Origin: a virus
Virus record (IMG/VR): IMGVR_UViG_3300022853_000125
Span: 1 to 20,216 of that record
DNA: 20,216 bases
Reading direction: 5' to 3' (one strand)
The translations under genes and the position numbers were made by a program. The notes beneath the pieces are model-generated. The model saw only the letters and a program-made list of their open reading frames with translations, did not search any database and was not told the origin of the DNA. The number at the start of each line of letters is the position of its first letter. Position 1 is the first letter of the stretch. Shown piece by piece: positions 280 to 18,518 of this stretch.

Positions 280-285
280 TATAAT
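280..285 (+). promoter_or_regulatory. TATAAT box, candidate -10 element
   Basis: This is an exact bacterial sigma70-type -10 hexamer, eight bases after the stop of the upstream gene. No good -35 lies 16-18 bases upstream; TTGATT at 262-267 is only 12 bases away. Transcription from it would begin near 291-293, just before the folded element at 301-390. In AT-rich DNA a TATAAT can occur by chance, so only the position is suggestive. Confidence 0.35.
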
Positions 286-300
286 GTGTTAAGTAAATTC

Positions 301-390
301 TAGGCTACTAGCTCCCTTAAGCTTTGGTCTATTAGTTATATAACTGTTGCCGGTGGAGTTTTCCCTTTCCTTTCTATCTCTGCCGGTAAC
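301..390 (+). ncRNA. Structured RNA or DNA element upstream of the small terminase
   Basis: Three inverted repeats follow one another. The first stem is 301-307 with 325-331 (7 pairs, two or three G-U), capping an inner AGCT stem 310-313/320-323. Next is the perfect 12-base palindrome AGTTATATAACT at 334-345. The third stem is 346-358 with 378-390, 13 pairs without a bulge, ten Watson-Crick and three G-U. All three G-U pairs are legal only in the + strand RNA, which argues for an RNA made rightward. The last loop (359-377) is 18/19 pyrimidine with a UUCCCUUUCC core. The stretch is much richer in G and C than its surroundings and has no credible reading frame. It could be a leader RNA for the terminase message, a small RNA, or part of a packaging site. 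I know of no named family matching it. Confidence 0.45.
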
Positions 391-409
391 CCTATAAATA
401 TTATTATGG

Positions 410-425
410 CTTTACTAAAGTAAAG
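410..425. promoter_or_regulatory. Perfect 6-bp hairpin just upstream of terS
   Basis: CTTTAC at 410-415 and GTAAAG at 420-425 pair perfectly around the loop TAAA. The dyad ends eight bases before the small terminase ATG, where a Shine-Dalgarno sequence would be; no strong one is visible. It may occlude ribosome entry, or be a protein-binding dyad. Confidence 0.3.
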
Positions 426-433
426 AAATTGAC

Positions 434-862
434 ATGGCAGGAAGAAAAAAGAAATTAACAGAAAAACTATTTGATAAGCTTTTAAATCTTATTGCAGATG
501 GTTTAACAATTAGAGAAGTATTCTCAAGAGATGATGTAGATTTTACCTGGCAATCTTTTAGAAACTATTTAATTAAAGATAATGTTTTAATGGATAGATA
601 TATCAAAGCAAAAGAATTGGCAGTTGATCTAAGACTTTCAGAGCTGGAAGACAAAAGAAAAGAACTAGAAATTAAAATAGAGTCTGGTGAATTAGATCCA
701 AAGGCAGCTCAGAACTTAGTAAACCTATATAAAATAATCGTTGCTAGTTCTCAATGGTCTGCAAGTAAGCTAAATGCTAAGAGATATGGTAAATCTGCAG
801 AGGTTTTAAGCATTAACTCTGATAAGAATCAACCATTAACCATCTCATGGTCTAAACCATAG
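434..862 (+). CDS. terS: Terminase small subunit, Sf6 gp1-like
   Basis: 142 residues, very close to the usual length of the Sf6-type small terminase (about 140). The small subunit forms a ring that recognises the packaging start site in concatemeric DNA and hands it to the large subunit. Residues 8-50 form a helix-turn-helix-like N-terminus (LFDKLLNLIADGLTIREVF, then WQSFRNYL), residues 55-105 a long charged helical oligomerisation region, and SKLNAKRYGKS (111-121) matches the conserved R-x-x-A-x-x-x-N-P-R-K-Y-G signature late in Sf6 gp1. Position directly before the large terminase supports the call. No strong ribosome binding site precedes the ATG, which follows a small hairpin. The assignment is from motif resemblance and context. 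Confidence 0.85.
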   Translation: MAGRKKKLTEKLFDKLLNLIADGLTIREVFSRDDVDFTWQSFRNYLIKDNVLMDRYIKAKELAVDLRLSELEDKRKELEIKIESGELDPKAAQNLVNLYKIIVASSQWSASKLNAKRYGKSAEVLSINSDKNQPLTISWSKP

Positions 863-1217: not shown

Positions 1218-1403
1218 ATGGATGATAAATTCTTAAAAACAACAATCTTTATAGTCAAAAATAAGACTACAAAAAAACCAATAGTTATTACTCACTTTGA
1301 AGGGTTCAGGGATAAAGCTGATGCTGAAGACTTTTCATTGTTTATTAAAGAACAGTTTGTCCTGGAAGAAGATTTTTTAAATCAAAACAAAACTTTACAT
1401 TAG
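1218..1403 (+). CDS. Small hypothetical protein between terS and terL
   Basis: 61 residues with a beta-rich N-terminus (TTIFIVKNKTTKKPIVITHF), then an acidic amphipathic helix (KADAEDFSLFIKEQFVLEEDFLNQ). The start is the first ATG in frame; no clear ribosome binding site precedes it. The stop TAG at 1401-1403 runs directly into a tract of eight G. It has the codon style of its neighbours and a clean frame from start to stop, but is too short to be certain. I do not recognise it. Placement suggests a packaging accessory or a moron-like small protein, which is inference from context only. Confidence 0.55.
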   Translation: MDDKFLKTTIFIVKNKTTKKPIVITHFEGFRDKADAEDFSLFIKEQFVLEEDFLNQNKTLH

Positions 1404-1412
1404 GGGGGGGTG
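1403..1412 (+). promoter_or_regulatory. G-run ribosome binding site of terL
   Basis: Eight G followed by TG lie 11 bases before the terL ATG. GGGGGTG can pair with the 16S tail CACCUCC with one G-U pair, so the tract may serve as an unusual Shine-Dalgarno sequence. No other purine-rich site lies in the gap. Confidence 0.35.
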
Positions 1413-14658: not shown

Positions 14659-14759
14659 TGATTAATATACCACTAAACGAAGCAAACACAGATTACCAAG
14701 CAATCCAAGAATGGATAGCTGATGGTGGAACAATAATAGATAATGGAGGTGGCGAATAA
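14658..14759 (+). CDS. 33-residue protein, paralogue of the preceding small gene
   Basis: This is a 33-residue frame, MINIPLNEANTDYQAIQEW and onward, ending DNGGGE. Residues 8-26 align with the preceding gene's motif: AN-[ST]-DYQ, then W-[LI], then a G and T. It starts in a TAATG overlap with the upstream gene and its stop TAA shares its last A with the ATG of the HNH gene, so it sits in an unbroken coupled chain. It looks like a truncated or minimal version of the same fibre-associated family. Confidence 0.6.
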   Translation: MINIPLNEANTDYQAIQEWIADGGTIIDNGGGE

Positions 14760-15607
14760 TGGCTTATATAGGCAGAGATATTTTTATAAACAATAAGTAT
14801 AAAACTTGGCATGATAATATTATAGCTAAAGCTAAAAACAGAACATTAGAAGGATATAAAGAAGTTCATCATATTATACCTAAAAGCTGTGGTGGAACTA
14901 ATGATAAATCTAACTTAGTACCTTTGGCTGCTAGAGAACATTATATAATCCATATGTTATTACCATATTTTACAGCAGGTCAAATTAAACATAAAATGTT
15001 AAATGCCTTTATATTTATGACTGCTAAATCTAAAGCTTGTAAAAGAGATTATAAAATTAACTCAAGAGTATATGAAAAATTAAAAAGTGAATTTAGTAAA
15101 TCATTAAAAGGAAGAAGATTAACTCCTGAATGGAAAGCAAAAATATCTAAAACATTAACAGGAACTAAATTACCAGAATATGTTAAAAGAAAAATTAGCT
15201 TAGGAAATATGGGTAGAAAAGTTAGCGAAAAAAACAAATTAGCTACTACTCTTCGTAATATGGGTAATAAATATAGTCTTGGAAAAAAAGTATCATTAGA
15301 AACTAGGAAAAAAATATCTATAGCACATACTGGTAAAAAACTTACAGAAGAAACTAAAGCTAAAATTAAATATGCTAGACAATTTCAAGTATGCTCTGAT
15401 GAACAAAGAAAAAATTATAGTAAAATATATTCAAATCTTATCTGGGTTAATAAAGACAATAAATCTAAAAGAGTTAATAAAGAATTGAAAAAAGATTATT
15501 TAAGTAATGGATATAAACTTGGTAGAAATATGTCTTATATGACAGGCGAAACTAGAAACTTATTATCTCAAAAAACAAAAGCCTATTGGCAAAGGAAGGT
15601 AGCATAG
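14759..15607 (+). CDS. HNH homing endonuclease with NUMOD3 repeats
   Basis: 282 residues, very basic. The HNH nuclease motif is clear: HH at 37-38 with IIPK, the central N52 with LVPL, and REH at 59-61 with a further H65. The region about 115-215 carries NUMOD3-like DNA-binding repeats (TPEWKAKISKTLTGTKL; GRKVSEKNK; SLETRKKISIAHTGKKLTEETKAKI). Such free-standing genes cut alleles lacking them and copy themselves. It starts MAYIGRD, nearly the same as the fibre starts at 13323 (MAYIGS) and 15608 (MSYIGR), although HNH proteins do not need this, so its 5' end may have been captured from a fibre gene. It ends exactly at the base before the next ATG. Confidence 0.92.
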   Translation: MAYIGRDIFINNKYKTWHDNIIAKAKNRTLEGYKEVHHIIPKSCGGTNDKSNLVPLAAREHYIIHMLLPYFTAGQIKHKMLNAFIFMTAKSKACKRDYKINSRVYEKLKSEFSKSLKGRRLTPEWKAKISKTLTGTKLPEYVKRKISLGNMGRKVSEKNKLATTLRNMGNKYSLGKKVSLETRKKISIAHTGKKLTEETKAKIKYARQFQVCSDEQRKNYSKIYSNLIWVNKDNKSKRVNKELKKDYLSNGYKLGRNMSYMTGETRNLLSQKTKAYWQRKVA

Positions 15608-16387
15608 ATGTCTTATATCGGACGTACACCTCAGAGTGGGAATTTTCAAGTTTGTGATACAATAGCAGTAGTTAATGACCAAGCTGCATACACTATGCAA
15701 GTTAGTTCTGTAGATGTAATTCCAGAAACAGCTAATCATATGCTGGTATCTTTAAATGGAATTTTACAAGCACCTACAAGTTCATACACAGTTAGTGGTT
15801 CTACAATTACCTTTGCTAGTAACCTTATTACTGGTGATGTAATTAACTTTATTCAGATACTAGGTTCAGTTTTAGATTTAGGTGTACCAAGTGATGGTAC
15901 TGTTACACCAGCAAAATTATCTGGTGTTACTGAAGGAATTAAAGAAGCTGACCAATGGAGATTAACTGCAACTAAAACAGATGCCACAGATATTACAGCA
16001 AATTTAGAAAGAAATGATACTAATTTTTCTGTAATTGGTTCTGGAATGTCGGAAAGTTCAGGAATATTTACTTTTCCTCAAACTGGAATTTATTTAATTA
16101 CAGCACAAGGTCGTTGGATTTCTAATGGCTCTGCTTCTTTATATATGGGACTTTTAATAAAAATGACGACAGATAATTCAAGTTATGTAAATGTTGCAAC
16201 AGTTTATGATAGTGCATCTACAAATGCTTATGCAAATACTTATATAAATTCTATAGTAGATATAACTAATACTTCAACTCATAAACTTAAATTTACAAGA
16301 GATGCAGCTGGTACACAATCTCAACTTCAAGGTGATACAGATGCTAATCATACTGCATTTACATTTATTAGATTAGGAGACACATAG
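15608..16387 (+). CDS. Tail fibre with C1q/TNF-like tip
   Basis: 259 residues. The N-terminal module (MSYIGRTPQSGNF, then HMLVSLNGILQAPTSSY and ITGDVINFIQILGS) is a standard marine phage fibre attachment domain, followed by a linker with a single TAK-like repeat (DGTVTPAKLSG). The C-terminal 145 residues look like a C1q/TNF-type jelly roll: GIFTFPQTGIYLITAQGRW (152-170), KLKFTRDAAGTQS, and the closing strand FTFIRLGD. This domain forms trimers and often binds ligands at fibre ends. AAGGAAGG (15592-15599), inside the end of the HNH gene, is its ribosome site, so its translation depends on HNH gene sequence. Confidence 0.8.
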   Translation: MSYIGRTPQSGNFQVCDTIAVVNDQAAYTMQVSSVDVIPETANHMLVSLNGILQAPTSSYTVSGSTITFASNLITGDVINFIQILGSVLDLGVPSDGTVTPAKLSGVTEGIKEADQWRLTATKTDATDITANLERNDTNFSVIGSGMSESSGIFTFPQTGIYLITAQGRWISNGSASLYMGLLIKMTTDNSSYVNVATVYDSASTNAYANTYINSIVDITNTSTHKLKFTRDAAGTQSQLQGDTDANHTAFTFIRLGDT

Positions 16388-16682: not shown

Positions 16683-17285
16683 ATGGCTATTAACCTTGCC
16701 AACAATAACTCTCTTGCTAGTATAACAGCATTACCAGCTAGTGTTTCTGGTGGTGCAATGACTTTAATATCCACAGCAACTGCATCTAGTTCAGCTACAC
16801 TTTCTTTTACAGATATTGATGACACTTATGATGAGTATGTATTTAAGTTTATAAATATACACCCAGCTACTGATGCTCAAACTTTTCAATTTAATTTAAG
16901 TACAGATGGTGGTTCAAATTATAACGTAACTAAAACATCAACTTGGTTTCAATCTTTTCATAATGAAGCTGATTCTGCTGCTAGTTTATCATACGAAAAT
17001 GGTTATGACCTTGCTCAATCAACAAGCGACCAACCAATAGTATATCAAGTTGGAAATGGAAATGACGAACAAGTTAGTGGTATGATACAATTATTTAATC
17101 CAGCTTCCACAACTTTTGTAAAACACTTTATAGGTAGATGTAGTTCATATTATTATACTAATGGAAACTTATGTGGTCATTTTGCTGGTTATGGAAACAC
17201 AACAAGTGCAGTAAACGCAGTTATTTTTAAGATGTCATCAGGCAACATAGATAGTGGAGTAATAAAATTATATGGCATTAGTTAA
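16683..17285 (+). CDS. Fibre/receptor-binding protein, tandem paralogue 1
   Basis: 200 residues, beta-rich, Ser/Thr/Asn heavy. Conserved landmarks shared with the next two genes are TASSSATLSFTD, then F-x-NIHPATDAQTFQF, LSTDGGSNYNVTKTSTWF, a GYDLAQST block, STTFVKHFIGR, a glycine-rich AGYGNTTSAVNA, and the ending SGNIDSGVIKLYGIS. The family appears in marine phage fibre loci and resembles a jelly-roll tip. GGAG at 16671-16674 is the ribosome site. Its last 14 bases are shared with the next gene, whose ATG lies inside the codons for YGIS. Role as a tip is inferred from the locus and composition. Confidence 0.72.
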   Translation: MAINLANNNSLASITALPASVSGGAMTLISTATASSSATLSFTDIDDTYDEYVFKFINIHPATDAQTFQFNLSTDGGSNYNVTKTSTWFQSFHNEADSAASLSYENGYDLAQSTSDQPIVYQVGNGNDEQVSGMIQLFNPASTTFVKHFIGRCSSYYYTNGNLCGHFAGYGNTTSAVNAVIFKMSSGNIDSGVIKLYGIS

Positions 17286-17892
17286 ATATAATAACAATAG
17301 CATAAGTGCTGTTACTGCAACTGGATTAGCAAGTGGTGCTATGACACATATTAAAACTTTAACTGCTAGTAGTTCAGCTACATTAAGTTTTGTTGATGGT
17401 ACAGATAGTGTGGTATTGGATTCAACTTATCCTATTTATGTTTTTAAGTTTATTAATATGCACCCAGCTAATGCTGATGTTTTATTAATGATGAATTTAA
17501 GTACAGATAGTGGTTCTAATTATAATGTTACAAAGACTACTACTCTTTTTTATGCTGGTAATAATGAAGCAGATTCAGCAACATCTTTAAGTTATTATGC
17601 CAGTAAAGATTTAGCACAAGGAACAGGATTTCAAGCAATATCATTACATCCTGGTGATGATAATGACCAATCATGTAGTGGAGAATTTACTTTATATAAT
17701 CCATCTTCAACTACTTTTGTAAAACACTTTATAAGTAGAATTTCTGCAAATACTTATAATGATTATGCTTACGATACTTATTGTGCTGGTTATGCAAATA
17801 CAACATCAGCAGTAGATGCTATTAGATTTCAAGTAGAAAGTGGCAACATAGACGCTGGTCAAATCAAACTCTACGGAATAAAGGATAGTTAA
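17272..17892 (+). CDS. Fibre/receptor-binding protein, tandem paralogue 2
   Basis: 206 residues, sharing the landmarks of its neighbours: TASSSATLSFVDGTD, a MHPANADVLLMM block, LSTDSGSNYNVTKTTTLF, SKDLAQGT, STTFVKHFISR, YANTTSAVDAIRFQ and ESGNIDAGQIKLYGI. It is closer to copy 3 than to copy 1 around VDGTDSVVLD, a stretch missing from copy 1. The start at 17272 is supported because MALVKYNNNSIS aligns with MAIVKLNNKAVS of copy 3. Between the conserved strands the residues differ strongly, as expected for loops under host-range selection. It ends in a TAATG overlap with copy 3. Confidence 0.72.
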   Translation: MALVKYNNNSISAVTATGLASGAMTHIKTLTASSSATLSFVDGTDSVVLDSTYPIYVFKFINMHPANADVLLMMNLSTDSGSNYNVTKTTTLFYAGNNEADSATSLSYYASKDLAQGTGFQAISLHPGDDNDQSCSGEFTLYNPSSTTFVKHFISRISANTYNDYAYDTYCAGYANTTSAVDAIRFQVESGNIDAGQIKLYGIKDS

Positions 17893-18518
17893 TGGCAATA
17901 GTTAAACTAAATAATAAAGCTGTAAGTAACGCAACAGCATTTGGAAGTATTACTGGATTAGGTAGTATGGTATTTATTAAAAAGCTAACAGCTTCTAGTT
18001 CTGCTACTTTATCTTTTGTAGATGGTACTGATGGTGTGGTGTTAGATGATACTTATAAAGAGTATGTATTTACATTTAATAATATGCACCCAGCAACAGA
18101 TGGTGCAAAATTCACTTTTAATGTTAGTTCTGATGGTGGTTCTAATTATAATGTAACAAAAACAACTACATATTTTACAACTTATCATCAAGAAGATGAT
18201 GGTTCTCCACTTATTCAATATGAAGCTGGATTTGATTTAGCACAAAGTACAGCTTTTCAAAATTTATCTGCAAACATGGGTAACAACAATGATGATAATT
18301 TATGTGGAGAACTTAAAATATTTAATCCATCTTCAACTACTTTTGTAAAACATTTTATAGCAAATAATAATCATGTTCATCAAACATCTGCTCCAGCTTC
18401 AGTAGAACCTTTTGCTGCAGGATATTGTAATACAACTTCGGCAGTAGATGCAGTTAGATTTCAAATGAGTTCAGGTAACATAGATGCTGGAGATATTTGC
18501 CTATATGGTATTGCTTAA
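17892..18518 (+). CDS. Fibre/receptor-binding protein, tandem paralogue 3
   Basis: 208 residues, with the same plan: TASSSATLSFVDGTDGVVLD, NMHPATDGAKFTF, SSDGGSNYNVTKTTTYF, GFDLAQST, SSTTFVKHFI, YCNTTSAVDAVRFQ and MSSGNIDAGDICLYGIA. Compared with copy 2 it has an insertion near 158-168 (HVHQTSAPASVEPF). A stretch of 30 identical bases is shared with copy 2 (17697-17726 and 18323-18352), enough to support recombination between copies. Its stop codon lies within the first arm of the alternative hairpins that follow. Confidence 0.72.
   Translation: MAIVKLNNKAVSNATAFGSITGLGSMVFIKKLTASSSATLSFVDGTDGVVLDDTYKEYVFTFNNMHPATDGAKFTFNVSSDGGSNYNVTKTTTYFTTYHQEDDGSPLIQYEAGFDLAQSTAFQNLSANMGNNNDDNLCGELKIFNPSSTTFVKHFIANNNHVHQTSAPASVEPFAAGYCNTTSAVDAVRFQMSSGNIDAGDICLYGIA

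Follow-up and report, generated by a model that had tools for sequence, protein, structure and literature searches.

The small terminase gene terS of a virus related to Pelagibacter phage HTVC106P is preceded by a gap of 161 bases, and the question raised by this locus is what kind of element fills the gap and on what it acts. The original prediction had placed a folded RNA here, which could be a phage small RNA, a leader controlling terS, or a packaging RNA or site. We analysed the entire stretch of DNA, a viral record from IMG/VR of 20,216 bases (hereafter the window), which shares about 78% identity with its nearest relative HTVC106P across 59% of its length. The gap length was confirmed, with the upstream ORF ending at 272 and terS (434-862, plus strand; Sf6_terminase, PF20901) starting at 434. 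Further downstream, in this order, follow terL (1424-2695), a portal gene and a capsid protein gene, both of SU10 type. The genes of HTVC106P are divided between the strands, those that look early (gp01-23) lying opposite to those for packaging and the virion; gp21 is an HTH_3 regulator, and gp70, two genes ahead of terS, encodes a winged-helix protein resembling replication initiators (PF13730, phrog_270). The window also encodes, among its tail-region genes, an HNH endonuclease with a NUMOD3 motif (14759-15607), a probable free-standing homing endonuclease. Three adjacent ORFs of about 200 aa each (16683-17285, 17272-17892 and 17892-18518) resemble tandem copies.

Positions 301-390 of the window are a plus-strand RNA element, consisting of hairpin 1, a palindrome and hairpin 2, directly ahead of terS. 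Stems had been predicted at 301-331, 334-345 and 346-390, and self-complementary sequence was found at all three positions; the middle one is not an ordinary hairpin, being a perfect 12-nt palindrome (AGTTATATAACT) immediately 5' of hairpin 2. Hairpin 1 (301-331) has a 7-bp stem (TAGGCTA/TGGTCTA) and a C-rich loop with CUCCCUU at 312-318. Hairpin 2 (346-390) has a 13-bp stem including three G-U pairs, with a tandem U-G/G-U at pairs 9-10, and a 19-nt loop (359-377) in which 18 positions are pyrimidines and which contains the conserved motif UUUCCUUUCU (UUYCCUUUCU) at 366-375. Compared with 200 dinucleotide shuffles, the plus strand of 280-425 folded at -38.9 kcal/mol (z -3.8), and hairpin 2 alone at -18.8 kcal/mol (z -6.3 against shuffles). 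Because the minus strand folded no better than chance (z +0.1), the claim that the RNA of the plus strand is under selection holds. At the gathering threshold Rfam 15 gave no match in the window, permissive Rfam scans of the leader and 14 relatives showed nothing credible at the element, and no report of it was found in the literature searched. Two related phage contigs contain type II hammerhead-like matches (L035 404-467 and L048 1479-1542, both minus strand) that score 30 bits against a family threshold of 37.

For comparison we used 109 usable distinct leaders of homologous terS genes from four terS-query scans of viral contigs, the most distant of which precedes a terS with 58% protein identity. 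A single terS relative was encountered in bacterial genome contigs (L334), and its leader carries the element as well. Hairpin 2 around a pyrimidine loop was present in all 109 leaders, always some 15-50 nt upstream of the terS start, and nearly all loops showed a CCUUUCU-like core. The stems were wholly replaced between clades with pairing retained. The near-identical phages L064 (GTGGCGTT/AACGCCAC) and L069 (AGGCGCTA/TAGCGCCT) differ by a swap of the entire inner hairpin 2 stem, 5' and 3' arm alike, which may point to selection for divergent stems. When G-U and C-A were scored equally, 48 distinct stems contained 57 G-U and 7 C-A pairs, and selection is therefore on plus-strand RNA and not on duplex DNA. 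A covariance model of hairpin 2 (R1) was built from eight sequences whose loops had been trimmed to one length for the seed alignment, since MAFFT alone misaligned the 3' arms. Sixty of its 61 matches were located just upstream of terS, i.e. in most loci, the remaining one being weak (window 15992-16035, minus strand). The absence of compensatory changes in the 346-390 stem would have spoken against the prediction; instead, two-sided changes were seen in all 13 pairs, 94.8% of cells were paired (37-41% for slid pairings) and the covariation score was 0.866 (about 0.1 for slid pairings), counts that were made on untrimmed R1 matches, which still lean to the R1 structure, with the G-U/C-A count as an independent check. 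A pattern search with one stem type retrieved 43 contigs, 40 of them with terS and the other three ending inside or just past the element. R1 did not find the element in HTVC010P, Greip, Lederberg, Skadi-2, HTVC028P or Venkman. We regard a structured RNA family in pelagiphages, not catalogued in Rfam, as strongly supported.

Hairpin 1 was detected in 104 of 105 leaders scanned, with 51 distinct stems, a median score of 16 against a control of 10, and a loop that keeps CCC across leaders; its statistics (22 G-U and 12 C-A pairs) are weaker than those of hairpin 2. Upstream of it, the supposed perfect -10 box TATAAT (280-285) did not survive alignment. It is the middle of an inverted repeat with the consensus ACnAnATnTnGT (276-287), conserved in column counts over 64 distinct leaders, and it reads TATATT, GATATT or TATCTT in relatives. 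The repeat is followed by GTGnTA, in many clades as part of an extended -10, TGnTATAAT, and in the same column counts the best -10 of the relatives aligns with window 290-295, within a segment reading TGTTAAGTA in the window (287-295). A simple promoter scan at the leader gave no sigma-70 consensus pair, so the promoter assignment is based on conservation, from which we predict a transcription start near 302, at the base of hairpin 1. The fourth stem predicted at 410-425 was likewise rejected as a part of the conserved element, as it lies in a 28-nt insertion (406-433) with a mini-ORF encoding MALLK and a stop (406-423) that is missing from close relatives such as L003, L004, L005 and L007. 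Only a few close relatives have this insertion ahead of terS.

The freely changing stems are not uniform in every respect. Many hairpin 2 stems had either a tandem U-G/G-U at pairs 9-10 or a single bulge, regardless of the remaining stem, and such a conserved irregularity could indicate a protein-binding RNA heading the late operon, be it a nut- or put-like site through which RNA polymerase ignores terminators along the long operon or the site of a phage regulator that recognises the loop together with the tandem or bulge. Its location, where a very long operon is predicted to begin, and the single copy per genome, with no credible second copy elsewhere in the genomes, would also suit such a site. 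However, a stem contacted by protein does not usually tolerate wholesale replacement, and no second copy was seen at an early promoter. The lambda late leader (6S RNA) and the nut and put antitermination sites are structured RNAs at the start of phage operons, but the pelagiphage leader matched them neither in sequence nor in structure, and no boxA/boxB or put architecture was seen; the Rfam scans gave no match to known antitermination RNAs. We consider a protein-binding site improbable.

The palindrome is as constant as hairpin 2. Each of the 109 leaders contained a 10- or 12-nt perfect palindrome, in most of them 0-3 nt from hairpin 2, with 17 sequences and eight self-complementary centres overall, whereas a palindrome of 10 nt or more occurred in about 4% of shuffled sequence. 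A repeated DNA operator would have a fixed half-site and spacing and several copies; with 17 sequences, lengths of 10-12, a variable centre and one copy per genome this explanation was rejected. Because palindrome length and centre vary while self-complementarity persists, pairing between the RNAs of two leaders is a better fit than an operator of fixed sequence. Cofolding of two leader copies from ten genomes predicted a dimer in all ten, in which both hairpins were kept, palindrome paired with palindrome, and the energy was 5-17 kcal/mol below that of two monomers. Such strong constraint on pairing without constraint on sequence is unusual and, if true, would represent a clear case of natural RNA dimerisation.

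A predicted dimer next to terS might also recall a packaging function. The phi29 pRNA, for example, is a phage RNA encoded beside packaging genes and able to multimerise. It does so through complementary loops, however, whereas the leader has a palindrome, the phage has a normal TerS of the Sf6 type, and Rfam gave no match. In favour of a packaging RNA or DNA site (pRNA, pac or cos) one could further point to contigs L367 and L386, whose ends coincide exactly with the final base of hairpin 2 and probably reflect assembly breaks. Against this reading, the G-U bias speaks for RNA rather than duplex DNA, and contig ends upstream of terS clustered at 800-1000 nt (hand tally from the tables of the four terS scans), outside the leader and with no pile-up in it, in agreement with the HTVC106P record, which ends 952 nt upstream of terS. 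A likelier place for packaging is the conserved tract GGGGGG-UUUU...UAUACCC in the interval from terS to terL, where G-runs occur in 72 of 73 loci; this tract is reminiscent of C-rich stretches preceding terL in HTVC010P, Lederberg and Skadi-2. In the window the interval shows two conserved G-runs (1144-1150 and 1403-1410), mostly followed by U-rich sequence, the first of them noncoding and with ...TATACCCA after it. Judging from sequence, the tract at 1144-1150 is a better packaging-site candidate than the leader, and the packaging role that had been offered for the leader now appears very unlikely.

The 3' end of alphaproteobacterial 16S rRNA is CACCUCCUUUCU, which resembles the loop motif UUYCCUUUCU, although this consensus is that of Alphaproteobacteria and may not be that of SAR11. 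The pyrimidine loop had been thought able to pair with purine-rich ribosome sites, and predicted pairings are in line with this. In ten long genomes with 50 ortholog families we compared loops with gene-start regions, picking gene starts by a simple rule and assigning early and late from strand alone. The best partner of the hairpin 2 loop was the replication-initiator-like gene (mean z -1.98), followed by the HTH_3 regulator (-1.53); in 40 loop shuffles, whose statistics overstate independence as the ten genomes are related, the best family had a mean of -1.24 and never passed -1.57, and the second best never passed -1.30. For the hairpin 1 loop the best partner was terL (z -2.24; best of shuffled loops -1.35 on average, minimum -1.97), with the G-run of the terL ribosome site (1403-1410, plus strand) as the predicted pairing partner. 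Mean pairing of the hairpin 2 loop was stronger with early-strand than with late-strand gene starts in ten of ten genomes. This bias is partly just a matter of stronger ribosome sites, because the 16S tail, too, pairs better with early genes. The initiator site paired poorly in some clades (the L277, L188 and L226 groups). Swapping loops between genomes did not weaken HTH_3 pairing (43/60) and weakened initiator pairing only mildly (4/60); there is thus little loop-target co-evolution, as swapped loops pair nearly as well.

The pairing survey also bears on the possibility that the leader acts in cis only, its hairpins protecting or processing the late mRNA or helping ribosomes to load on terS via the single-stranded pyrimidine loop, with no pairing to other mRNAs. 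In favour of this, the element lies shortly before terS in every leader, a ribosome site cannot be recognised for many terS genes of the HTVC106P clade, and the G002 clade shows a 9-bp pairing between the hairpin 2 loop and the site of terS itself. As a general rule, however, pairing with the region upstream of terS was rejected, since it ranked 15-62 in the other nine genomes, and stability alone leaves the conserved loop letters and the perfect palindrome unexplained. We judge a leader acting solely in cis to be unlikely, if less so than a protein-binding site. Of the earlier suggestion that a leader controls terS, the leader or riboregulatory RNA remains the best fit, while the ribosome-binding site of terS is no consistent target. 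The element could also be a phage small RNA; no terminator follows hairpin 2.

A similar design is known from bacteria. The alpha-r14/NfeR1/cuckoo (CcsR) sRNAs of Alphaproteobacteria have hairpins with highly divergent stems and loops with an ultraconserved CU-rich anti-Shine-Dalgarno motif, by which mRNAs are silenced at their start regions (PMC10746234). The leader shares with them the series of hairpins, the freely varying stems and the conserved CU-rich loops. Their motif CCUCCUCCC is identical in three loops, whereas the leader loops differ from each other, with CUCCCU or ACCCUU in one and UUYCCUUUCU in the other; moreover, they are free sRNAs in bacterial genomes, while the leader stands at the head of a phage operon, carries a palindrome and shows no terminator downstream of hairpin 2. 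Because the defining CCUCCUCCC is missing from its loops, the leader is not a member of this family by sequence, and the resemblance is one of design and not homology; by analogy it may nevertheless work like the alpha-r14 sRNAs. Structured RNA candidates have also been described in Candidatus Pelagibacter ubique, as host motifs preceding ffh, pntA and further genes (PMC2704228). The marine SAR11 setting is common to both, and the main text of that study does not contain the words 'phage' or 'terminase' (PMC2704228).

Taking these observations together, we tentatively favour, at a little less than an even chance, a structured 5' leader of the late operon (packaging and virion genes) whose CU-rich loops pair with ribosome-binding sites, and on the same tentative footing we regard regulation through loop pairing as the most likely mechanism. 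A regulated promoter would probably start transcription at the base of hairpin 1, and both stems would serve as interchangeable scaffolds presenting CU-rich loops that mimic the 16S rRNA 3' end. As late transcripts accumulate, these loops would bind ribosome-binding sites rich in purines. Hairpin 2 would target the sites of the replication initiator and of the Cro-like regulator, by which early functions would be shut off, and hairpin 1 the G-run ahead of terL, by which the packaging motor might be timed. The palindrome could join two leaders head to head in a symmetric dimer, which would display more loops. A bolder version, which we consider speculative and rather improbable, is that a self-dimerising leader with two kinds of 16S-tail-mimicking loops would let rising late transcription directly shift translation away from the genes for replication and early regulators and towards packaging, and that palindrome and stems diverge so that related phages avoid mutual interference.

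The element belongs to a large group of phages of ocean SAR11 bacteria, in which it stands ahead of the DNA-packaging genes. Pelagiphages are among the most abundant ocean viruses, and to our knowledge almost nothing is known about the timing of their gene expression. The contrast between conserved loops and freely rewritten stems provides a base-pairing hypothesis that is directly testable in the cultured phage HTVC106P.
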